Source: Branchiostoma lanceolatum
Taxonomy: Eukaryota > Chordata > Leptocardii > Amphioxiformes > Branchiostomatidae
Assembly (NCBI RefSeq): GCF_035083965.1
Contig: NC_089738.1
Span: 12,116,734 to 12,180,733 of the forward strand
Reading direction: 5' to 3'
DNA length: 64,000 bases
Below are positions 7,085 to 37,800 of this stretch, in pieces. Made by a program: the position numbers and the translations under genes. Every line of letters starts with the position of its first letter. Position 1 is the first letter of the stretch. A model generated the notes under the pieces. It saw only the letters and a list, made by a program, of their open reading frames with translations. It was not told the origin of the DNA and searched no databases.

Positions 7085-10000
7085 ATGACTACATGTGATG
7101 TGATTGTAGTTGGTGCTGGCATCAGTGGTGAGTGTGCATTATTTTCCTTCTGGACTGTTAATGATTGTTTATTGAAGATTTCTTTTCTCATTTGCATTTT
7201 GAATGTTGAAAAAAATTTATTAAGTTTTATACCTGGTATTGTACCCTGAGGAACACCAGAGATCCAGAGTCTCTCAGATCATACCAACATAAACTTCTCT
7301 GGTTGAGACTGGTCTGCCTTAAAGTCAAGGTCAATGACCTCAATTTGGGACACCCAGGTGGCTTGAGACTTGTTCAGCATATGTTACAGCACATGATATG
7401 TTTAAGGCTATGGAATTAAGAAATTCACCCAAACTTTGAGATCTTTGATTTCCTGTTTTGCATGTACAATTTTGTTCCACACAGGTCTGAGTGCAGCCAA
7501 GCTCCTCCATGAAAAAGGGCTGGATGTGTTGGTTCTGGAGGCCAGGGACAGGGTGGGAGGGCGCACCTGCACTGCATATGTGAGAAATACCATTGATGAT
7601 GATTGATCTTATTTATTACGACAGATTAAGTTACATGCAAATGTTACCAAGATCTAATGATGAACTTCATGTACTTTATTCGATTTTTTCTCCACTTGAT
7701 CATGCTGAATCCTTCAAAATTTCACATCTTATAATTACTGTACTAATTTTTTTGTAACAGTTGTAACATTTCTAGATCTCCTTTTCACGCATAAGAAGTT
7801 TTCCTTATTCAACACTATTGAACCATAACTTTCGATGATTTATCATAATGATTGACTATTGATAGTCATCATAACCCAATGACCATGCCTCAGGTGTTGA
7901 ATCTCGTTTAAACATCTAATTAAGTTCTTTGTGCAAAATGTGCAGGGAGAAGGATTCGGTTACTGTGACGTTGGTGGATCGTACGTCGGCCCCTCTCAGA
8001 ACAGACTCCTCCGTCTGTCCAAAGAGCTTGGGATAGAGACCTACAAGATGCACGATGAGGGGCAGTACATTTTCATGACTGGAGTGAGTATTAGAATATA
8101 TTGTTGATGTCTCAAAATGGCTTTTCTAAATTATAACAAAATGGACCAAATATGTTACACATAAATCCTTTTTTTATTTGATTCAACCATCAACACAAAG
8201 ACATAATAAAACATCCAGCAGAAATCGAAGCACATCATATAGTTATCATTTGTACATGATATAGATAAGGATCCACAAATCAACAGAAAAGTAATAAATT
8301 AATCAAATACATAATGCACATAAACCCTTAAGCTTAGCACACTGAAGAAGCTGTTTGGCTAAACCAATTCTCTACGTGTTACGTTGTTAGGAAGCAGGTA
8401 GAAGGTTACATGTACATGTCCGGTAGCACTCATGGCTTAATGTCAAGAAGTGCACATCCTGTGTAAAGCAATCTCGACTTGATCCTTGAGCGGCCATGAC
8501 AGATAGCTAGAATCATGCATGTTTTTGTCTGTCATGGCCGCTCAAGGATCAAGTCAGATTTCTTCTTGACGTATATAGACTCAAGTTGTGTAGAGGAGGA
8601 GCAAGATCCGGCCAATATTTTGCAATTTAGACATTTCTTCCGAAAATAAAATCTAGGTCTCAGACATGAAGACTTTCATTCTCACATTTGTTGCTGAAGA
8701 GATTTTATTCTTGCAGTATATAACTGTCAATTCTGTGAAAATGATTTAGATGATTATCATAGAGTATTATGCAGCCGACTTATAATTGATTAAGTTAAAT
8801 TTTAATTTTAAAAGATCAAGACATCATGCTCAGTTTTTCTACATGTTACTGTTACACATGTATTTGGTAATCTAATATAACCTTGTTGACACAGGGCAGA
8901 CCTACTCAGTACAAGCCCCTCCCTACCTTCTGGAACCCGTTCAAAACCATGGATCTCCTGCACATGCTCAGGCTTATTGATGAGTATGGGAGCAAAGTAA
9001 GTAAAAGGGTTAATTTTGTTTCATTTAAAAAACACTGTCACAGTTACTGTTACTACAGAATTGAAACAGTCTGTACTACAGAATTGTTTCAACTGTGCAA
9101 TCTTACCACAAATGAAATTCCCTGCAACGATAGATAAATTTACGGTACTTTTAAAAATCAGATATAATAGTAGCCAAGAAAATGTAGCATTGCTGCAATA
9201 AAGAAGCTTAGGAAAGTACTGCAAATGGCCATGATATTAATGACTAGCTGTGGCGATACTACAGAATTTCTTATCCTGTCAATGGCAATACTGTAAATTC
9301 ATTTATTTTCACTGGGACTCAGTTTTGCTGTAGAAGGTAAAGGAGATTTTAGCAGTGTTTTATGTTAAACTTTGAAGATGAAACCATTCTGTAGTACTGT
9401 AGTTATACACTGGAAATGCATGTTTGTGGGGTCATGCATTTGTAGTGGAGATCGTGCTCACCACGAAAACCATGAAAATAAAACCACCGCAAACATTTCA
9501 TATGTTTCAAGATTTACTGTACGTGTACTGCATGACAGATCCCAGCTGATGCACCCTGGGATTGCCCTCATGCTGCGGAGTGGGACAGGATGACGATGAA
9601 GGAATTCTGGGAAAAGCACTGCTGGACAAAGTGAGCGACAAAGAAGTCATGTCATGTAGAGGGAAAATCTTTATCTAACTCATTTACTTTTTTTGTAATA
9701 AATTTGCAATTATGCTTTTCTTTTGAGGTTATTGTTCCAACAACCTGTTGGAATAAAATTTATGGCCAATGGCACCGGCTCCTGCAGAAAGTCTCAATTT
9801 GAATTGGCCACTGCTGGGCTGGGTCCTGCTGTCAATTGCTGATGTTGGCTGTTGAATGGAGTTTTTATGCCCCCAGGGGACGGCAAAAAAGTAGTTGCTG
9901 GTTGGATAAGTCGGTTGGTTGCCAGAGGGTCGTAAACTCTTGATATTGTAAAATTGGACGAGACTCAGTTTTAATTGGAGGTTGATGTCTGTGTGAGGTT

Positions 10001-13000
10001 GTTTGACTGTGTTGTATTTTTCCTATAGAACTGCTATCACGTTTGGTGACTTGTTGGTGGAGTCATTTGTGACAGCAAAGTCCCACCAAGTGTCCATGCT
10101 GTGGTTCCTGTGGTACATTAAACAGTGCGGAGGTAAGCTCTTGATTTCTAACAGCTCAAGTTTTTGGTTACTTGAAAAGATCTTGTGGTTTTGCAGCGTA
10201 GCAGTTTCTCTGTCTCAGTATGTAGCAGTTCAAATCCCAGGCTTTGACTTGACCGTAGATCAAACCATAATCATCCGCCACTCATGAACGTCCGGGTCTG
10301 CTCAGATGATGTTCGACTCTGCCACTACATCATCTTGCCGTATCTCGTTCCGTCTCGCACATGTGATGTAACCTCGCGGTGTTCAATTCCCACATATGAT
10401 GCGCGTCATCATATTGTCGCAATGTGCATGCCAATAATACTATGTTGTATGTTGCATTCTTGATTATAATAAAGAGGGGATAAAGCAATAAAGTAAGTCC
10501 CACTGTTGCCCCCGTGTTGGGCAAATAGTCACAATAAGTTTTGATCATTTCTTTTTCTTATTGGTTGAGTTTGATTTTATGTCTCCTTTCAAAGCCAATT
10601 ATTATTCATTTCCCCAACAGGCTTTGACAGGTGCTGTTCAACAGGAAATGGTGGACAGGTAAGTCTGTCTTACAACAGGTGTGTTTTACATGACGTATAA
10701 CTTGTATTTTTTCATGCATTGATATAACAACAGTAGCATAAGAATATGTATATGGAATAAAGAATTAGATCTATGTGGCTAAATGCATCTTATTTTGGAT
10801 TAGCATAATATACAAAATATTATACATACATCTGTTTGTGTTGGAAGAAAGTTTAGCATTGTACTATGATAACTTCCGACACAGATGAGCTTCCATGATC
10901 CTCTGGTGTTAACAGTTGAATTCTGTCATGCCTCTAGGAAAGGAAATTTCTGGGTGGATCCCAGCAGATCAGCTTGAGGATGCAGGAGTTGTTGGGGGAC
11001 CGTGTGAAACTGAAACATCCGGTCATGAGGGTGGAGCAAGGGGAGGATGGAGTGACACTGTACACAGACACACAGGACAGGTTTCAGGTGAGTGATGAGG
11101 ATGGTGAGGGGGATGATGGAGTGACACTGTACACAGACACACAGGACAGGTTTCAGGTGAGTGATGAGGATGGTGAGGGGGAGGATGGAGTGACACTGTA
11201 CACAGACACACAGGACAGGTTTCAGGTGAGTGATGAGGATGGTGAGGGGGAGGATGGAGTGACACTGTACACAGACACACAGGACAGGTTTCAGGTGAGT
11301 GATGAGGATGGTGAGGGGGAGGATGGAGTGACACTGTACACAGACACGCAGGACAGGTTTCAGGTGAGTAGTGAGGGTGGTGAGGATGGGGGAGAAGAGT
11401 GAAGTGGTATTGCACACAAACACTCATGTTTGGGACACTGGTTTCATGTAAGATCTAGTACATTAAGAGTGGCAGGATCCCATAACAATGTAATGAGGAG
11501 GACATGCCAACAGTATTACACACCCTCTGGCAGAACACTGTTACAGAAACTGCATTGCTCCATCTGACTGAACATATATTTACAACTGTAGCATGGAAAC
11601 ACACAAACATAGACACACACAGGCAGATAGACACACATAGACACACACACATATATATACATACATAAACACACACACAAATACACAGTCACATACATAG
11701 TATTATATAAACACACACACACACATGCACCCACCCACCCACAAACACACTACTAGTAATCTTATATGATGCACACACATGCAGACAAGCTAAAACAATA
11801 GGTCCAATTCCTTTTGATCATTTAACATTTAACTTTCTCGCTACATAATTCCTGAGTTACTTTCCGATGATTTAAACTTGATTCCTCATTCATTTTCAGG
11901 CTCGTCACATGGTATTTTCCATTCCTGTGCCCTTGCAACTGAAAGTGACGTTTGACCCTCCGCTACCGACGCCGCGTTACCAGCTGATTCAGCGTGTTCC
12001 GATGGGCTCGGTTCTGAAGATAATGGTGTACTATGAGCGGGCATTCTGGAGAGAGAAAGGTTACTTTACATTCTTTAGACTTTGTCTGTTACAGTAATAT
12101 CTCTTTAAGGTTATACTGTTAATGCACTGCTACTTAATTTTGTGTTAGAGGGGGGAAGGAGTTTTTTGCGCTGTTTTAACATTAAATTTGCAGTAACAAG
12201 TTGAAACAGTAGTCATATCTTGGAATGGCATATTAATGGTGTCATGGATTCATGATGTTTCATACTTAACATTATTACCCCTAAGTGGTGACTAGTTAAG
12301 TCAAACCTGTACTAGCAACCACCTCTGCAAAAGGACCACCTGGCCATGGAGACCACTTTCTGGTGTTTGCTTAGATTAAATTTCCCAATAACCTAAGCAT
12401 TAAGAAGGTTTGACCATAGGCAAACAACCACTGTACATTTTGTTGAGTTTTATTCATGTTTCTGTAGGCTACTCTGGTCTGATAATTATAGAAGAAGAGG
12501 ATGCCCCTGTCTGTTTCACTTATGATGACACCAAACCGGATGGATCTTACCCTTGTATCATTGGGTAAAAAATCTCGTCTTAACCATATGAAGAAAGTGA
12601 AGAAGCTATGATAATCATACTCATAAGTACAATGATTATAATAATAAAGACCTGAAAATCTCTTATTAAGGATTCTCAGGACAGTTTAACATCATGGAAG
12701 AGGATGGCCCAGTCACCTTTACATTTGATGACACCAAGCCAGATGGATCCTACCCTTGCATTGTTGGGTAAAGTTGATCTGTTGCAAAACACTTGCACAG
12801 CTTGCCAAGCTTCTCCAATCACAGCTTGCCAAGCTTTATAGGGCTCCCTTGGAAATCAGTTTCAACGTTTATTGAAGGGACCACCCTAAAGATTGATAAA
12901 TAAATAAATCATATAGATAAATATAGCTTCTCCAATCACAGCTTGCCAAGCTTCTCCAATCACAGCTTGCCAAGCTTCTCCAATCACAGCTTGCCAAGCT

Positions 13001-16000
13001 TCTCCAATCCCCATGGAAACCAATCCTTGTCTTGCTGAAGATTGCCCTTCTCCTACACAGAGCCTCACCCATGGCCACTGAGTATGGATGGGTTTTACCC
13101 TAAGGCTAGTTGTATCATTGGGTAAAAATGTTGTCATGATAATCATATTCAACAACATGTAATAATCGTAAGAACAAAGGCATTATCATAATGATTATCA
13201 TGATGATAATAAAGACCTAAATATCTCTTAAGGCTTCTCAAGACTATTTAACATCATGGAAGAGGATGGCTCAATCACATAGGATGACACCAAGCCAGAT
13301 GGATCCTTATTATAATACCCTTGTATTGTTGGGTAAAGTAAAGACACTTGCTCTATTCCGCCATCTGAGGGCCACTTTTCATAATCATGGTGACTGGGCC
13401 CTCTTGCTCTGCATGCAATCTGCAAATATGCTACACATTGAAGTGTCCTCTCATGCCAGGCCTGCTGCCCCTTATGCACTGGCTTTCAGCTAGGGTTATA
13501 GGCCGCTTATCCCAAAATTGCACCAGAGCAAATGTTTGATAAGCAATTTCACAAATTCTGATCCACAATTAGCACATTGTAAAGCTGTAAATTAAAGTGT
13601 TTCACGATCAAATTTTAGATGTAAAAGATGTCGGTACAATATGCTTAAATCTTAAGATCCAATCTGAGTGCTTACTTACTAGTTTTCGTTACGTTCTAAA
13701 AGGTATGAAAAGGCTTTAGATTTTTCATCTTCATGGCAATTTCGTATCTTCCATTGAAGTTTTAGGCTGAACATGTATTTCTAATGTGACTTCATGATTA
13801 TGTTCTTCAATGTAGGTTTTGCCCAGCTGATAAAGCTGTGCACTTCTCGCAGCTTCCTGAAGAAGAGAGGTAATCCTGACTGTCCATCACAATTAACAGT
13901 AACCAATGATAGCATGACAATTAGTGGTTCAACCAATGAGTGGCTGCATGCCCACAAAATCGTTGCATTTTTATGTTTTCATTTTGCATGTCTATGTTTT
14001 GATGGAAATGGTGGGTAAGCTCAGAGTGCGGGATTCGTCTGTTGGTCTTTTATATCAATATGTCATTCATTTTTGTAAATTGATACTATGAACAAGGAGG
14101 TTGAATACTAGTACTGTATGTACTAACCTCCTTGCTCTGACCTGAACAATTTCTTGTTCTTAGTACATGTAGGTGTAACAACACATACTGACTGGTAATT
14201 AGATTTTTATGTTACAAAACTTTTTGCAGGAAGATGCTGATCTGCAAGAGTTATGCAAAGGCCCTTGGCACAGATGAAGCTTTGAAGGTGGGAATGCATG
14301 ATTGAAATAATGCAAAAAGCGTTTATATATGACGCTGTAACTGAAAATAAGATGATACCATATGAATAAGACATTAACATGGTAACTTGTTAACTTATAC
14401 CAAGCCTGGTATACATTCTCTTCTAATCGCTTCTCTGCAGAATAGTCTAGCCTCCATCCCTATTGAACTGTATGGTTCTTACATCTTACTATTTGAACCT
14501 TGCCACAGTCTAACTTATATCAGCTTTTGGTGTGTGCATGTTTTTGCGAGGCATCTTCTGGAGTTAATATAATTGGATGCAAAGTCAGTGGAAAATGATA
14601 AAAAGGGTCACCAATGCAACCAATTGTTATTGCACATTTCCTGTAATTATATTTCACTTAATACAATGTTGCCATGTGCTTGATGACAGTATTTTCTGTG
14701 CATGATTTTTTGGTTCAATACAATGTGTTAAACCATGATAACAAAATGCTGCCTCATCTGTTGTTATTCTAGCCAACAGCCTATGTGGAGAAAAACTGGA
14801 TGCAAGAGGAGTACTCAGGGGGCTGCTATACCATCTACTATCCACCAGGGGTCCTCAGTAACTTCGGAAAGTAAGTCATTGTTAAATGTTCCAAGCAGTT
14901 TCAAGAATGCTCTATGTAAGAAAAAAAATGTTCAATAGCTTTCATGTAAAAGCCTGAACCTTTGTCTACTCATGAGAAGCCTGCAGGCTGATTCTCATTG
15001 TGGTCATGAGGGAGGAGGTAAGGGTCAGGCAAGATATATAACAAAGATACAGTTGACATGATTTAACTTCCTTACTGCCATTAACAACAGAATCATATGA
15101 ATGTGTTGGAGATAGTGATGGTCAATCAGTGCCAAGGAAAGGGCTGAGGATAGCCAATCAGTACCAGGGAAAGGGCTGAGAATAGCCAATCAGAACTGAG
15201 GAAAGGGCTAACCAAAGCCAAACAGTACCAAGGAAAGGGCTCAGACGATGGCCAAAGAAGTTATGCAAGTGCGTCAACTGAAGCAACATTACCTGCAATG
15301 ATTTTCTTAATATCCGAGGGATTTCACTTTTATTTGTTAATCATCTCCAAAACAAAGGAGAAATATGATTGTTTGTGATCTCCCAGGATGAATGGCTGTA
15401 CTAGTTTTTTTTCATCCAATTTGGCTTGTAGACCAATGAGCTGCAGATAACTTGGTTCTATTCTACTATATTTTAAATTTAACATCATACAACACTTTGA
15501 AGTAAGAAAGTCGTTTTGTGTTGTGTTGTGTACAGGGTACTAAGGCAGCCGTTTGGACGTATCTACTTTGCTGGAACAGAGACGGCCACCCATTGGTCAG
15601 GTTACATGGAGGGGGCGGTACAGGCTGGGGAAAGGGCAGCGAGGGAGGTGAGTGGGAAGAATCTCTCTTAAACTAGCAGTTTTACAACTCAAATAGTCAC
15701 AATGTCGACCATTCATCATCTCAGCCTCTCTACAGATCCAAAATCTACCATTAAGGATCACAACCATAGCAAGTATGTCCATAACACTGATTTGAAAACC
15801 ATAAGTTCTGCTGCAGTACCATAGAAATCTGCTTGGAGGCTCATAATAGAATTTATGAACACTAGATTTTATCCTTTCTTTGGGGACACCTTATTATCAC
15901 AGATTCAATGACTTCTTTAGTTTTTGAGGTAAAAAAAAAATTCTCAACAGGATGCATTTCATGCAATTTTTAGAATATTTTCAGAGCAATGGCAGAAAAT

Positions 16001-17005
16001 ACCTTTGAGGCATTGGTACTGTGTTATTGTATTCACCTTCTGCTGTATTCAAAAGAGCGTTGAGGGGACTGTTAAAGCACTATATGTAAGACAGAGTAGT
16101 TAGAAATTCACTGGTTTATGCATTAAGACCCATTTCTGGTCTTTTCCAGACCTTAAATGCAATGGGTCGCATCCCTGCAGACCAGATATGGCAAGAGGAA
16201 CCTGAATCAAAGGTACAGTTTGTATCTTTTTTTGGTTCAATTTTAGTTGTTTGCAGAGTGTCCAAATGCTCTGCCCCAACATTTCCTTTCCGTCATCATT
16301 TCAGGAGGCTCGCCTGGATTAATTCCTATCACTTTCTCTCCCAAAGTCTCTATATCTTCCATAGTGTTTTTTAAGTCCATAACTTGTACGTGTACATATG
16401 GGGATGTCCCTGTAGCTCAACTGGTAGCAGCCTCACAATTTAGCTCCTGCAATAAGTAAAAGCATGGAAGACCCTGGGCAAGACATCTCAGTTGGGGCTG
16501 CATCCGTCTTTCGGAAGGGACATAAAATGGGGGTTTTGTGTTCAAGCATCGGAGGTGCCTCAATGAACACACAGAAGGGCTAGCATCCTCTCCCTGTAAA
16601 AAATACCATCCCTTACTAACTGAAACAGCAAGGAAACTATGTGCTACTAGGCACTAAAAGCCTTGGGGTCTGAACGTCGCTGGCAATTGGATTAAAGTTA
16701 AAGTCTGACAGAGTCGACCAACTCGTGGATAAATCTGTGTCTCCAAAGAAGCAGCTCACTCGACAGCTCACCCTCCTTACATACAATGCCTCCTCTACAT
16801 GTATTTTTGGTACAATGCTGTAATTCAGCAATCACAAGAAACACTATCCTTTTTTCAGGACTGTCCAGCGCTACCCTTTGAGTCGACGTTCTGGCAGCGT
16901 AACTCCCCGTCTGTCGGAGGGTTTCTGAAGTTCTTGGGTCTGTCCCCGGTTCTCGCGGCCGCAGGTGTGGGTGCGGCGTTCGTTCTGAAGAAGAGTAGCC
17001 TGTAG
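7085..17005 (+). CDS. MAO: Monoamine oxidase (flavin amine oxidase), 16 exons, complete
   Basis: Coding exons: 7085-7127, 7485-7579, 7946-8083, 8895-8996, 9539-9630, 10029-10132, 10621-10658, 10938-11087, 11900-12059, 12468-12564 (or 12671-12767), 13816-13869, 14230-14287, 14773-14870, 15536-15647, 16150-16212, 16859-17005. All junctions are phase-consistent and give 516 aa, close to vertebrate MAO (about 520). Seen: the N-terminal dinucleotide-binding motif VVGAGISG followed by [10 protein letters not shown]294, C395 in SGGCY and Y433 in SGYMEG, matching the active-site lysine, the cysteine that binds FAD covalently and the aromatic cage of MAO-A/B with a constant two-residue offset; a hydrophobic C-terminal segment (about 485-516) ending KKSSL, as in the outer-mitochondrial-membrane anchor. 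The family oxidatively deaminates biogenic amines. The donor of exon 9 (gttact) is weak. Exon 8 has tandem donors and exon 10 is duplicated (separate entries). A and B types cannot be distinguished; invertebrates usually have one unsplit MAO. Confidence 0.95.
8476..8555. repeat. Perfect 28-bp inverted repeat inside MAO intron 3
   Basis: Bases 8476-8503 and 8528-8555 are exact reverse complements around a 24-nt loop. The stem lies in the intron between MAO exons 3 and 4, so it would be present in the pre-mRNA as a long hairpin. Weaker pairing continues outward (a tgtcaagaag block near 8441 against cttcttgac near 8563), which suggests a small foldback transposon. Confidence 0.9.
11040..11390 (+). 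repeat. 69-bp tandem repeat carrying five in-frame 5' splice sites (MAO exon 8)
   Basis: The 3' end of MAO exon 8 and its donor site are repeated with a 69-bp (23-codon) period. Consensus donors CAG|GTGAGT occur at 11088, 11157, 11226, 11295 and 11364. The intervening sequence is open in the MAO frame and reads [15 protein letters not shown] then TDTQDRFQ per unit. Using donor 1 gives a product of the normal family length. Each later donor would add 23 acidic residues without shifting frame into exon 9. The long minus-strand frames over this block are repeat shadows. Confidence 0.9.
11590..11790. repeat. CA-rich simple sequence
   Basis: Intron 8 of the MAO gene holds a degenerate (CA)n and CACACATA tract with short ACCC units. 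It is a compound microsatellite; open frames on the minus strand here are artefacts of the repeat. Confidence 0.8.
12468..12564 (+). other. MAO: MAO exon 10a (first of two intact exon copies)
   Basis: A 97-nt exon with acceptor tctgtag and donor GG|gtaaaa. It encodes [17 protein letters not shown] and then [16 protein letters not shown]. By my alignment it covers human MAO-B residues of about 310-341, including positions 316 and 326 in the entrance and substrate cavities (here Ile314 and Phe324 of this protein). It enters after one nucleotide of a codon and leaves after two, exactly as exon 10b does. Confidence 0.9.
12671..12767 (+). other. MAO: MAO exon 10b (duplicate, candidate mutually exclusive exon)
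   Basis: A second 97-nt exon with acceptor tcttattaag and donor GG|gtaaag, 203 bp after exon 10a and in the same phases. It encodes [17 protein letters not shown] and then [16 protein letters not shown], with no stop. The two copies are identical over [12 protein letters not shown] but differ in the first half, where the residue aligned with MAO-B Ile316 is Asn instead of Ile. 97 nt is not a multiple of three, so including both exons would shift the frame; one or the other must be used for a full-length protein. Confidence 0.85.
12797..13012. repeat. 24-bp minisatellite in MAO intron 10
   Basis: The unit cacagcttgccaagcttctc + caat recurs, with two units near 12797-12838 and a run of about four at 12927-13008. 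The two blocks are separated by an inserted stretch (12840-12925). The tract sits between exon 10b and the degenerate exon-10 copies. Confidence 0.85.
13079..13126 (+). pseudogene. Relic of the 3' part of MAO exon 10a
   Basis: This stretch resembles the last 40 or so bases of exon 10a plus its donor: tatggatgg, ttaccct and tgtatcattggg|taaaa occur in the same order as at 12535-12570. The following intron sequence (gataatcata...aataataaagacct) also matches the intron between 10a and 10b. It is part of a larger duplication of the 12535-12770 segment. Confidence 0.7.
13233..13332 (+). pseudogene. Dead third copy of MAO exon 10 (10b-like)
   Basis: Acceptor (ctcttaag) and donor (GG|gtaaag) look intact and the exon resembles 10b, sharing ttaacatcatggaagaggatgg and acaccaagccagatggatcc. 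It carries an in-frame TAG after the codons for GSIT, a deletion after that point and an insertion near the end, so it measures 100 nt rather than 97. It cannot encode a working cassette. Confidence 0.8.
15114..15257. repeat. Tandem repeat of about 31-33 bp in MAO intron 13
   Basis: Four to five imperfect copies of a unit like atagccaatcagtaccaggg + aaagggctgag follow one another. It lies well away from the splice sites of the flanking exons. Confidence 0.8.
16399..16695 (+). mobile_element. tRNA-derived SINE (family S1) in MAO intron 15
   Basis: The 5' part (gtccctgtagctcaactggt) is a good tRNA-like RNA polymerase III A box. It is followed by a unique body and a simple end (ggattaaagttaaag). 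A second, truncated copy of the same head lies at 22516-22570. The second promoter box is not well preserved. Confidence 0.6.
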
Positions 17006-21300: not shown

Positions 21301-24074
21301 ATAAACATTAATCCACTGGGTTACATAAATCTGCCACTTTGAAAAACAGTGGGTTTAAGAGATGCAGCACCCCCCAGGTATGCACAGTTGATAAACAATG
21401 CATGTAGGAGTGTATTATACTGGGGGATGTTTGATTTTGGACGTATCTTTTCAGGGTGGCAGAATTATGAACCCTGGTGGAATTATAGCTTTAATAGTTG
21501 ATGTTACTTGTAACATAATTACAGTGTTTGGGGGAATTTCTAGATGCACTTTTGAGGTCCCCTGCTGGCGCCGAATGGCAGCCGCCAGACCCTTGCGACA
21601 GTTTCATAAAGTGCAAGTGTGCAAATATGACTATCATGTGTATTATTGTGTATTTATGATTGTAAACCCTGCATCAATTCAGCATTGGCTGCCATTGCAA
21701 GGGTAATTTCGGACCAATAAACCATTTATTATTGTTAGTATTATTATTATTATTAAACCACTCATACCGTCCATGTGATTGACATTTCTAATTATTGTAA
21801 TCCCACCAAGGCAGCGACGATCGTGCGCACTCCAGGACACCAGCCTGGCTGGCAAACCTCCCAACCTGTGATGAAGAACAACATGGCGGCAGCCCCACCT
21901 GTGACTGCGGTGAGTTAAGACAGGATTTTTCCCACTTCAAATTACACAAGTTTACATTTTGTATTTATGCAGTGCCACAAACCTCCTGCCACAGAACCAC
22001 TCTGTTCTTACATTTCCATGATTACAAATAAGCGCGTAATTGTGTATAGTGACCTTCAACAAGATGGTTATTTTTCAGTAGTGTTTGTGTCTGCGTGTGT
22101 GTCTATTTGTGTCAACATGATCACCCAAGAAGGCCTAGATGGATTTTTTGGACCCCCTAGCGACATGTTATGATACTGCAGGAGAAATTCATGATTAATG
22201 AAAACAATCTATAACTACAATTTGTGATAAAAAAATGCTAGTTTACAATCCTTTGACTTCATACTTAACGTGGAGGAGATGGTAAAGTTTATGCAAATGA
22301 GGAATTTATTTGCATGATCATTGAGAAACATTTATATGTCAGTTGTAAATGTTAACAATAACATCATTTGGGAAAGGTAATTTGAGGTCATGAAACTTGG
22401 TCTAGTTGTGTATTATGTAGCTATAGCATTTGTTAACTTTTAGTGACATGTACTTTAATAGCCCATTAATGGGCAACTATGTACAATATTATGGAGGGGG
22501 GAGGGAAGCCATTAGAGATGTCCCTGTAGCTCAATGGCCGGCAGCCTCACAGTTGAGCTCCTGGCTCCAATCTGTTGCTAACTTGCTTGCTGAGTCCATG
22601 TTTGACTGTATTACAGGCAAACCCCCTGCCTGGCCGCGAGAAAGACAAGCCAACCCCAGTGAACGGCCCCGTTCCTATGAAGACCGCAACTGGTGAAGGT
22701 ATGTTAAAGATTTGTGAGTCCATTTGTGGCTGTAATGGTTTTAACACACTTTATGCTAAGTCTTACTCTGTCACCTGAATTCTGTAGCATGACAAAGATC
22801 CTTTGCAATGGTTAGTATTAGTTTTTGGCGACGCCTCAGGCATTTACGTTCACCCCTGGGGTTCATCCTAACAGATTCCTTTATATTGAACTATCTGACG
22901 AGTGCACATGTATAGACTGTGGATCTGTAGTCTAAGGAGATTGACATTACAGTGGTTTGAAATATGAAGTCTGAAATGGAGATTTTGGCATGAAAGCTGC
23001 ATCTTCCCACAATGACATCATGTTCATCCTCTCTTTCTCTCCTTCTCCATATACAAGTGTGTGTATGTGAATTTGTGTTTGTATGTATTTGTGTGTCCTT
23101 ACTCTTAATATCATTTTCACAATCTTTTAGAAAAACAAACAGTTACAGTCTGCTGCAGTATTGTCACAGTGTTTCTTTTGTATTTATCTAGAGTTTGTTT
23201 TGTACCTAGCTTTTTGTGATTTTCTTTTGGTAACGTAGAAAAGGTTGATGGAGGCACCAGACGCGAGGTTGTGAAGATCCGTACGTATGGATCAGAGCCG
23301 CGCGAGTCCAGCCCCCGCGGCGTTGATGTGTCAATCGACAACGAGATCTACATCACCGACAGCATCAAGCGGCTGGTGCAGGTGTACAACATGCGTGGTG
23401 TTCACCTGCGCCAGTACCCGATGGTCCTGCCAGGGGGCGCAACGATGAAGCCTTGGGATGTGTCGGTCAACCCAGACGGCCACCTGTGGGTCGTGGGGTC
23501 GGATAACAGCCACGATGAGCACGTCGTGCAGTACGCAAGAAACGGCCGCCTGACATCCAGCTTTGGCATCGGCAACAGCCTGTACATCAACGGCATCGCG
23601 ACTGATCCCCGGAACAACCGTGTCATTGTCACCTGCTCTGACGGCTACAAGGGGCGCCTGGAGATCTACCATCCCAACGGGTACCTCCTGATGAGCCTCG
23701 GACCGGAGGAGAGGATGTCAGCGCCGCTCTACGTCGCTGTCAACGATGAAGGAACCATCCTGGCGTCCGACACCCGCTCCTACAACGTCTTCGCCTACGC
23801 CGAAACCGGGCAGTTCCTGTTCAAGTTTGGCGGGTACCAAGCCGGAGAGGGCTCCATGTATCGTCCCAAGGGCCTCTGCGTGACCGCGTACGGCGACATC
23901 GTCGTGGCCGACCAGGGAAACCAGCGCCTGGTGGTGTTCACAAGCCGCGGCGAGTACCTCCGCGAGATCCCGACCGGGATGCGCTCCATGCAGGGGGTCG
24001 CTGCTGGTCCCGGGGGGCAGCTGGTGGTGGTCGACCCCGACGAGCGGGTCGTCACCATCTTCCCCGGCTACTGA
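18351..24074 (+). CDS. Repeat-rich type II membrane protein with extracellular NHL propeller
   Basis: Exons 18351-19173, 20045-20190, 21811-21909, 22617-22698 and 23239-24074 join in phase to 661 aa. The start is supported by an in-frame TAG three codons upstream. Order: seven tandem repeats of 25-28 aa (residues about 3-193, core IQIQAPDPDQNMDP preceded by VYEQAW); a basic/acidic linker; LNPLY (NPLY at 19143-19154, an NPxY-type motif); one hydrophobic helix (about 292-314) with no signal peptide; a Pro-rich stalk; six NHL-type blades (about 384-661; for example GVDVSIDNEIYITDS and GLCVTAYGDIVVADQGNQR) encoded by one GC-rich exon. NHL propellers bind proteins or RNA; in TRIM proteins they follow RING, B-box and coiled-coil domains, which are all absent here. 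The topology (N-terminus inside) is inferred from the lone internal helix. I recognise no named orthologue and assign no function. Confidence 0.85.
18357..18929 (+). repeat. Seven tandem coding repeats (75-84 bp) in the NHL gene exon 1
   Basis: Units begin near VYEQAW and end near DPDQNMDPVAD; they differ by small in-frame length changes and substitutions. The DNA is dense in GATC and GGATCC words because the core reads gatccagatcagaatatgg + atccg. That makes the opposite strand open over 337 codons as well. Splicing into the transmembrane and NHL exons shows that the plus strand is the coding one. Confidence 0.85.
19211..19236. repeat. (CACT)n microsatellite
   Basis: About six tandem cact units just inside intron 1 of the NHL gene, 38 bp after the donor. 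Confidence 0.95.
20290..21150 (+). repeat. Dispersed repeat (family R1), long copy
   Basis: The longest copy seen of a repeat that recurs at 6130-6670, 22040-22400 and 48900-49190, with probable head fragments at 50310, 54105 and 55560. It has a gt-rich head (ggtgtgtgttagtctgtctg), a block near gatggatcttt, a cccctagcagctttttgaaact block, a middle with tatgcaaattag and cataattag, and an end block with aaaggtcaacatcc and gaaggtatgaggtcg. It lies in intron 2 of the NHL gene. Confidence 0.55.
21550..21755 (+). mobile_element. Short retroelement-like tail ending in (TTA)n
   Basis: A block starting near gaggtcccctgctggcgccg carries two similar gccattgcaaggg / ggcagccgcc motifs and ends in ccaataaaccatttattatt then a pure TTA run. 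A simple-repeat 3' end of this type is usual for SINEs and some LINEs. It sits just before exon 3 of the NHL gene. No coding sequence or clear promoter boxes are seen. Confidence 0.4.
22040..22400 (+). repeat. Dispersed repeat (family R1), internally deleted copy
   Basis: It shares the head (caagatggttatttttcagt, gtgtctatttgtgtcaac), the ggaccccctagcgacatg block, atgcaaatgagg and ttatttgcatgatc with the 20290-21150 copy in the same order, but is less than half as long. It lies in intron 3 of the NHL gene. Confidence 0.5.
22516..22570 (+). mobile_element. SINE S1 head fragment
   Basis: The sequence gatgtccctgtagctcaa and the following gcagcctcac match the tRNA-like head of the SINE at 16399. 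It is truncated about 50 bp before the acceptor of NHL exon 4. Confidence 0.55.
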
Positions 24075-34838: not shown

Positions 34839-37800
34839 CTAGCAAGGTGACTCAAAGTCCTGTGCATTGTCAAGATCGCGTGTTCCAAGCTCTTTCAAGA
34901 GGATGTCTTCCGGGGCGTGTGTTGTACAGGCGCCTGTTCCTTTGTCGTTGGAAATGTTGATAGAAGAGACTTGTGGGGACAGCAATGTGACGTCCACTCT
35001 GCTGGGGCGAGTGGCCTCTTCCAGACACTGCAGGACGTACGTACGCCCGGACACGACCAGCCGTTTGGCCTGGTCGCGGAACGCCCGGTTCAACCCGCTG
35101 TAGATGAAGACATTGAGGATCCCGTGACAACCATGCAGCCAGTACACCGCGAACTCCACGTCAGGGTGGGTCGTGTACTTCAGCATCTGCTGACAAATAG
35201 CCAGGACGCTGTACGGCACCCATGTCAGGAAGAAAGTAAGCGTGATGGCTGCAGTTGTCTTGGCCCCTTGCAGCTTGTCTTCCGTAGCGTGTGGGTTGTA
35301 GTGGTAGATGTTATTCAGGTGACGCCGGGCGACTGCGTACACTTTACAGTGAAGGATGCCCACCAACAGGACCATCCCTGTGGCGAAGGCAATGCCAACA
35401 GCCAGCGGAGCCACGCCGCCGAAGTCGAAGGTACAGTGCGCAGCGCTAGGTAAGAAATGATATCTGCAAGAAAAATTGGAGAAATAAGAAAAGGCAAGTG
35501 CACTAAGGTCCTGTAAGGAAGGTCGAGATTTCTATGCATGTCCAGAATCCGTCTCCGATTTCCATGATAATGTTGGACTTGTTTTGTCTATGTCTCAGGG
35601 ACCTGGATCGTTGACCTTGCGCATGCGCATTTAGAATCGTGAACCTCCTTGTACAACAAACTTGATATTGTCGGTGAAACTTAAACCAGTAAACTCCTAT
35701 ATTGTATTGTAACTTTTCACGTAGTCGTATAAAAGAATATCATCTAAAACCATATCATTTCCTCTCCTCATCGCAAATGTGTGGGGTCATATCATACAAA
35801 TTTTAGTTGAGCCAGTTGATACCAATTTACTGCTGCCCTGTTAGATATCATTTCAGTACAGTTACTCCTCGGTGAGGTGACGCCAGTTTCCAAGATACAT
35901 GCCAATGGATCATCATAACATATCAAAATAGTCCATATTTCTATGGGAAAATATGCTACACTGTCGGTTGTAATGTAATTAGTACCCTGAAGGGGACTCA
36001 AATGCCTCAAAAGACAGAAGTATGAACTGTTCTTTAATTTGAAAGAAACTTCCAGAGATTTCCTGAAGGCAGAACGTATCTGCCAGAACTTCAATTCAAT
36101 TCGCTGTTCAAATTAGTGTATGTCCTCGGGTAACTTTCTTTTCCATCGGCATCGCTGTTTGTTCGTTCATTCAGTATATGAATCGCCCACTCACCTGATG
36201 GTACGCTGATAGTGCAGCGTGCAATTGCATTCGTCAGAGACAAAACAGAAAGCTGTACATGTTCTGTAAAATCTCACCTTTTATGATCAAAGATGTTGAT
36301 TGAGAAGCTCATGACAGGCAGTATCCAAGCCGCGGCAATCATAGAGGTGCACAGCTTTGGTCCTACGATACTCTGATACCTTTTTATGTTAAGGAAAATA
36401 CACAAGCGTTGAATGACATAGCCCAAGGGGCGTTAAGAATGTATAATTTCAAACGCAGACACTATAAAGGTAGCACTCGATGTAAGTACATCTTCATGAC
36501 AATTAGTACGAATGGTCTTTTCTACATGGTTTTTTAACGTCCTCGTTTTTCAGAGAAAGCTTTCAAGTTATAATCAAGTGAATATTTCATAAGGCCCTAA
36601 AATGCTGTTCTAGAAATGGCAGGACATTTTTACAGTCACGGTTTGAATAACTTGTCGTTATGAATATATGGATGCGACATATACCGGGTAAATTACTGAC
36701 ATTAGAACCTAAATGCTGAATCAAGCACTAGCGATGTAACCTAGAATTAAGAGGAAATGCAAGGCCGAGAAAAAATGTTGTGTTTCCGGTTGCGAAGGTG
36801 CGAATGAAAAAAAATCATAAATGTAAATTCATTATTACATTTAAGTTGTCAGGAAGGATACACAAAATTTAACACACAGCGTATGGTATACCGAAATATA
36901 GGTTCTTCATTTTTGTTCTTTCAAAACTTCTTATTTGACTTTGCAACTGACTTTCCATTCTACGACATTTTCCAAAACATTTATTTTGCAATTTACAGCA
37001 TGCGTTCTCTCATTTTGCAGCTGTTTCTTTTCACGATTTACAGTATGCCCGAAAACTTTTTTGTGTGGAAACGGACGAAAATTGATGCGCGCGTAGGGCA
37101 TGTAATCAAATCAGCATGGCCTTATCAGAGAAAACAACATTAATTTCCCAGGCCCAACGGATGTAAAGACTTAGAGATCTTACTTCAAAGCGTGGACGAT
37201 GAGGATGTACCGGTTGATGGCGAGACCGACAAGGGAAAATGTAGAGGCCATTGTAGAGACACAAGAGAAGAATGTCGTCAGCTGCAGCATTGAAAAGGAA
37301 AAAGAAAAGATAGAGCTGCTTAAAGAAGCCGCCCAAACTCAAAACTCGAAAAGAAAACTCTTATTGCACAGCACTCGAGCCTGTAGTGATTTGAACCAAG
37401 ACCCTTTAGATTCTAAGTCAACACATTGAACAACCATAACCACAAGACCGCCTCGGCACACTGACAACGATGCTGTGGTCAATATCAAATCATTAGCCGT
37501 GTCTAACATGCATATGTGGCTGTTAATGACCAGGAAACGTTGATTACACTCATATCTATACGCGTGGCGTCGGATGGTCAAATTACAACGAGCCTCTCTT
37601 CCCCTCTTTGCCTACATATCTCACAAGCAACGCCCTTATGTGTGTGACGTTTAGCGCCCAAAATTAAAAATATTTTCTGGGATAAGATATTAAGATGAAT
37701 AACGTGTATACAGCCCTTTTTTTGCATACAGTATTTGGATCTTTATTTAGTATTTCTAGTGTTTGTGACCAAATGTTTGTGACGATAAAGCACGTCGACT

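Follow-up and report, generated by a model that had tools for sequence, protein, structure and literature searches.

A probable mutually exclusive exon pair predicted to alter the entrance cavity of an amphioxus monoamine oxidase

Substitution of tandem duplicated exons is described from human, fly and worm: adjacent homologous exons are used one per transcript, the fold is kept and one region is altered (PMC9741552). Exon choice that sets the substrate route of an enzyme is a rare variant of this theme; the authors of PMC7434440 name human CYP4F3 and know few others. In coq-2 of C. elegans, the equal-length internal exons 6a and 6e (134 nt) remodel the core of the enzyme and switch its substrate, and in CYP4F3, also a metabolic enzyme, exon choice shifts substrate specificity by tissue (PMC7434440). 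Exons 4a and 4b of OGDH are mutually exclusive exons of another metabolic enzyme, and the size of the intervening intron is restricted (PMC7969005). A further likeness is found in the monoamine oxidases (MAO) themselves, since MAO-A and MAO-B are two oxidases with differing cavity residues, position 314 included (PMC6864482, Table 3); for mammals, PMC8082503 describes these two types.

Here we describe two adjacent versions of exon 10, 10a and 10b, in a MAO gene of the amphioxus Branchiostoma lanceolatum. The window, that is, the whole stretch of DNA analysed, comprises 64,000 nucleotides (NC_089738.1, positions 12,116,734 to 12,180,733); coordinates below are those of the window, on the + strand unless stated otherwise. 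Unlike in the events of PMC9741552, exclusive use is here predicted, and whereas most of the human changes described in that source are conservative, 10b would bring two polar residues, Gln and Asn, to a cavity that is hydrophobic. Similarly, coq-2 is backed by RNA, genetics and metabolites, while the MAO pair is known from sequence alone; CYP4F3 is a different enzyme and was reported from biochemistry (PMC7434440). Among the listed titles and abstract openings from a library that covers few subscription papers, none described alternative MAO exons or amphioxus MAO isoforms, and the excerpts of PMC12084633 mention monoamine oxidase in a reference only. Judged by title and abstract opening, the listed papers on mutually exclusive exons in amphioxus concern other genes, e.g., Fgfr (PMC5703972).

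The gene spans positions 7085..17005 and has 16 exon positions, with exon 10 in two versions. In the spliced model the coding sequence measures 1551 nt with either exon 10, is open from ATG to TAG and yields 516 amino acids plus stop. The protein is closest to solved MAO-B and MAO-A chains (E from about 1e-198 to 1e-190); with phmmer, the match to an MAO-B chain has an E value of 1.2e-198 and covers residues 3-506 of 516. Among these matches, 1gos is the human enzyme. Identity to MAO-B is 56%, and the Pfam Amino_oxidase domain is recognized in both isoforms with nearly the same score (270.4 bits with 10a, 268.7 bits with 10b). Cys397, Lys296, Tyr398 and Tyr435 are all kept, their equivalents being C395, K294, Y396 and Y433. 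Cys397 is the FAD-linking and Lys296 the catalytic residue. Tyr398 and Tyr435 form the tyrosine cage in literature passages on MAO. The gene is a complete animal-type monoamine oxidase. Its C-terminus, judged by eye, consists of a hydrophobic tail, a candidate membrane anchor, followed by KKSSL.

Several other elements of the gene and of its surroundings deserve mention. At other listed cavity positions, encoded outside exon 10 (exons 4, 6 and 7; 8895-10658), the residues of the window MAO and of MAO-B are, respectively, Leu/F at 103, Leu/W at 119, Phe/L at 164, Leu/F at 168, Ser/L at 171, Phe/C at 172, Cys/I at 198 and Cys/I at 199. The 3' end of exon 8 and its donor are repeated as a 69-bp tandem array (11025-11385; 5.2 copies, 96% match), which offers five identical donors (exon ends at 11087, 11156, 11225, 11294 and 11363), in frame and open; splicing from one of the later donors would lengthen MAO by 23, 46, 69 or 92 residues. 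No further MAO gene that could have donated 10b lies in the window: the tblastn hits of both isoforms are confined to the present gene, its copies of exon 10 and the repeats of exon 8, except for one match at E 8.5-8.9. Two scans of prokaryote genome contigs for MAO relatives, from which residue frequencies at 314 and 316 were to be taken, gave 4 and 32 pattern matches, none of which was confirmed. Similar stretches at 16399-16700 and 22518-22570 (GATGTCCCTGTAGCTCAA...GCAGCCTCACA) have the look of a dispersed repeat, perhaps headed by a tRNA (by eye, with approximate ends). Downstream of MAO lies an exon of an NHL-repeat protein (23238-24071; Pfam NHL, 3.4e-21), and the - strand carries a partial frame of a rhodopsin-type seven-transmembrane receptor (34839-35528; Pfam 7tm_1, 2.7e-07); the other nine of the ten open frames scanned alongside the latter gave no Pfam match.

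Exon 10a (12468..12564) and exon 10b (12671..12767) are both 97 nt long and are separated by an intron of 106 nt (12565..12670). Each is preceded by AG and trailed by GT, and both have the same phase and are open in the frame of exon 9 (11900..12059), the upstream constitutive partner; exon 11 (13816..13869) is the downstream constitutive partner in the spliced MAO model. In MAO-B numbering, 10a is the MAO-like version, with Leu314, Ile316, Phe326 and Tyr328, and 10b the divergent one, with Gln314, Phe315, Asn316, Phe326 and Phe328. The two are tandem homologous exons with compatible splice sites, and in spliced models either one alone gives an intact product: translation ends after 345 residues if both are included and after 328 if neither is. 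The equal length, shared phase, openness and joint breaking of the frame, all proposed in an earlier sequence-only reading, are thus borne out. The same reading had the second halves of the two exons as identical, but the last 13 codons differ at six nucleotides and one residue. Resemblance of 10b to 10a is not due to chance: when the 10a peptide is run ungapped against all six frames of the window, 10a itself reaches 184 and 10b 137, as opposed to 16 for the top unrelated stretch; a broken third copy with indels, described below, gets only 12. Altogether, the 27 nucleotide differences between 10a and 10b translate into no more than nine residue differences (NG86 dN 0.17; dS 1.95, which is saturated).

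Donors were scored on a consensus matrix. The splice sites of the pair had been described as good, but by this measure the donors of 10a and 10b rank last among the gene's 16; that of exon 9, GTTACT, is the fourth weakest. The weakness is not distinctive, with 13% of the GTs in the window scoring as high as the 10a donor or higher, and 10% in the case of 10b. Weak donors are common for regulated exons. As for the acceptors, that of 10a is among the pyrimidine-richest of the gene (13/16) and that of 10b is middling (10/16). In OGDH, exclusion is achieved by distant branch points, and the steric threshold is about 50 nt from the upstream donor to the branch point (PMC7969005). The MAO intron does not fit this scheme: counted from the donor of 10a, its best-placed branch-point-like A is some 91 nt away and the next candidate 59 nt, whereas the sole branch match closer than 50 nt, TTAAC at +19, lacks the AG-free run up to the 3' splice site that the design requires, being followed by six AGs before the AG of that site. 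Steric exclusion of the OGDH type is therefore unsupported. Exclusion by competing RNA structure was likewise rejected, the duplex energies of the flanking introns falling within those of shuffles for all three pairs (z 0.48, -0.51 and 0.44; 60 shuffles each, for a single sequence). Frame incongruity combined with nonsense-mediated decay (NMD) is a described route to mutual exclusion (PMC7969005), and we infer that exclusion of 10a and 10b would be left to frame incongruity cleared by NMD, together with unnamed regulators. The weakness of both donors, the stop after 345 residues in the joint product and the 106-nt intron, which poses no steric bar to 10a-10b splicing, would also suit a regulated poison exon, with 10b either included along with 10a or skipped owing to weak sites, and decay tuning the amount of MAO. 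However, a poison exon needs no kept protein frame, whereas 10b encodes a well-formed MAO segment and its differences from 10a are strongly biased towards silent ones, which makes such a role unlikely.

The intron after 10b holds further copies of this region. A 10a remnant from the 3' end of the exon (13086..13121; aligned over 36 columns that include an insertion of 9 nt, with the donor context kept), a duplicate of the 10a-10b intron (13122..13232; 76 of 103 ungapped positions identical) and a decayed third copy of the exon, 10c (13233..13332), follow one another in series. 10c is interrupted by two in-frame stops, has lost 6 nt at one point and gained 9 nt at another, and derives from 10b, to which it is identical at 82 of 91 ungapped positions versus 67 of 91 for 10a. 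Taken alone, the 10a remnant scores barely higher than the best of 500 shuffles (33 versus 32), but the whole duplicated block aligns at 233 versus a shuffle maximum of 49. A fuller copy of 10a upstream of the remnant was not detected, as 344 of 500 shuffles scored at or above the alignment of that upstream part. The serial arrangement indicates tandem duplication of a segment stretching from the end of 10a through 10b. By this evidence the event followed the 10a/10b split; afterwards the added copies degenerated, whereas 10b remained open and free of indels. Both 10c and the 10a remnant had escaped the sequence-only reading. Copies of a 24-bp satellite (AGCTTCTCCAATCACAGCTTGCCA) occupy 12796-13025 in the same intron, downstream of 10b and upstream of 10c.

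The dead 10c provides a built-in comparison in which 10b was kept and its sister copy lost. With 10a as outgroup, parsimony places four changes on the 10b branch after it parted from 10c; two are silent and two, L314Q and Y328F, replace residues. These four are too few to prove continuing constraint, and exchange between copies could mimic them. Asn316, common to 10b and 10c, is older than their split. One may ask whether 10b is a formerly working alternative exon that has since fallen out of use and is entering the same decay as 10c. Its acceptor is weaker than that of 10a, half of the changes on its own branch replace residues and 10c proves that copies can die here, yet 10b is without stops or indels and both of its splice sites are intact. 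Thus, recent abandonment of 10b also appears improbable.

The substitutions between 10a and 10b bear on whether 10b has been translated. Neutral simulations started from 10a and run to the same number of differences produced so few residue changes once in 20,000. In a fairer simulation, 10a took silent changes only and 10b was free since its birth, with equal mutation input to the two; runs with at least 27 nucleotide differences, at most nine residue differences and no stop were counted as matches. In each of the 11 settings, 0 or 1 of 3,000 runs matched. The openness of 10b alone proves little, because 43-79% of the neutral runs stayed free of stops over the length of exon 10. The flanks of 10a and 10b share no repeat beyond a few bases, suggesting that the duplication is old. 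That 10b was non-functional from its origin as a duplicate and is open by luck agrees with this frequency of stop-free runs at such short length but not with the silent bias or with the age of the duplication, and is very improbable. Coding constraint is seen on both copies over the whole history of the pair. According to this substitution pattern, 10b has, for the greater part of its existence, been translated and subject to coding constraint, and very probably is a selected coding exon.

In the ungapped alignment to MAO-B, the nine residue differences (10a/10b) are Y/F at 311, L/Q at 314, I/F at 315, I/N at 316, E/M at 318, A/G at 322, C/T at 325, Y/F at 328 and I/V at 341. It had been proposed that position 316 is Ile in 10a and Asn in 10b and that 326 is Phe in both, which the alignment confirms; the pocket changes at 314, 328 and 341 had been omitted. 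The pocket residues with computed energies in Table 3 of PMC6864482 include six positions within exon 10, namely, 314, 316, 326, 327, 328 and 341, with 327 and 341 making small contributions. The exon swap affects four of these six positions versus five of the 27 others (Fisher P = 0.034, a marginal and post hoc result). Ile316 packs against or interacts with ligands in modelling and docking work (PMC5840146, PMC12301006). Positions 314 and 316 are alternate residues and so should have the same orientation; through them, 10b would render one face of the entrance-cavity strand polar. It is plausible that the isoforms are functionally different, and through the choice of exon 10 a single gene could probably give rise to two oxidases that differ in substrate preference.

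Comparison with the human enzymes puts the exon swap in perspective. At the six pocket positions of exon 10, human MAO-A and MAO-B differ at 314 and 326, whereas 10a and 10b differ at 314, 316, 328 and 341; the human enzymes are products of two genes and also differ at 199, which, like 326, is unchanged by the swap (PMC6864482). The suggestion that a single gene does here the job of two vertebrate genes is thus a loose parallel, in which 314 changes in both pairs and 326 in the human pair only. Zebrafish have a single MAO gene.

These observations are best explained if the two versions of exon 10 in this animal MAO gene arose by tandem duplication and are mutually exclusive, a reading to which we assign a probability of roughly 0.7. 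The idea of exclusive exons yielding two oxidases stood as far as its sequence part is concerned: the frame logic, the intact product obtained either way and the constraint on 10b speak for it, as do the decay of 10c and the residue changes leaning to the pocket; its likening to the two vertebrate genes had to be loosened. Under mutually exclusive splicing, the spliceosome would link exon 9 to one of the two versions, and this in turn to exon 11; aberrant products, i.e., those including both exons or skipping both, would be out of frame and cleared by NMD. 10a is the probable default, given its better acceptor and more MAO-like residues, and 10b would probably be used in particular tissues or stages. 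Inclusion of 10b would replace Leu314 by Gln and Ile316 by Asn, making the strand polar, and Tyr328 by Phe, and may thereby alter substrate and inhibitor preference, while the FAD cysteine, the catalytic lysine and the aromatic cage would be left untouched. Both replacements that followed the split from 10c, at 314 and 328, fall at listed pocket positions. A more specific scenario, in which a hydrophobic-cavity enzyme with 10a and a polar-cavity enzyme with 10b oxidise different amines by tissue and 10b is, in keeping with these two replacements, under continuing adaptive change, is offered tentatively, its chances being somewhat short of even.

Exons 10a and 10b would thus represent a further case of a known type of exon swap, in a rare setting, the substrate route of an enzyme. 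If the prediction is true, the breakdown of amine neurotransmitters would be diversified by splicing within one gene, and the two natural isoforms would offer a ready-made comparison for working out which cavity residues set MAO preference.
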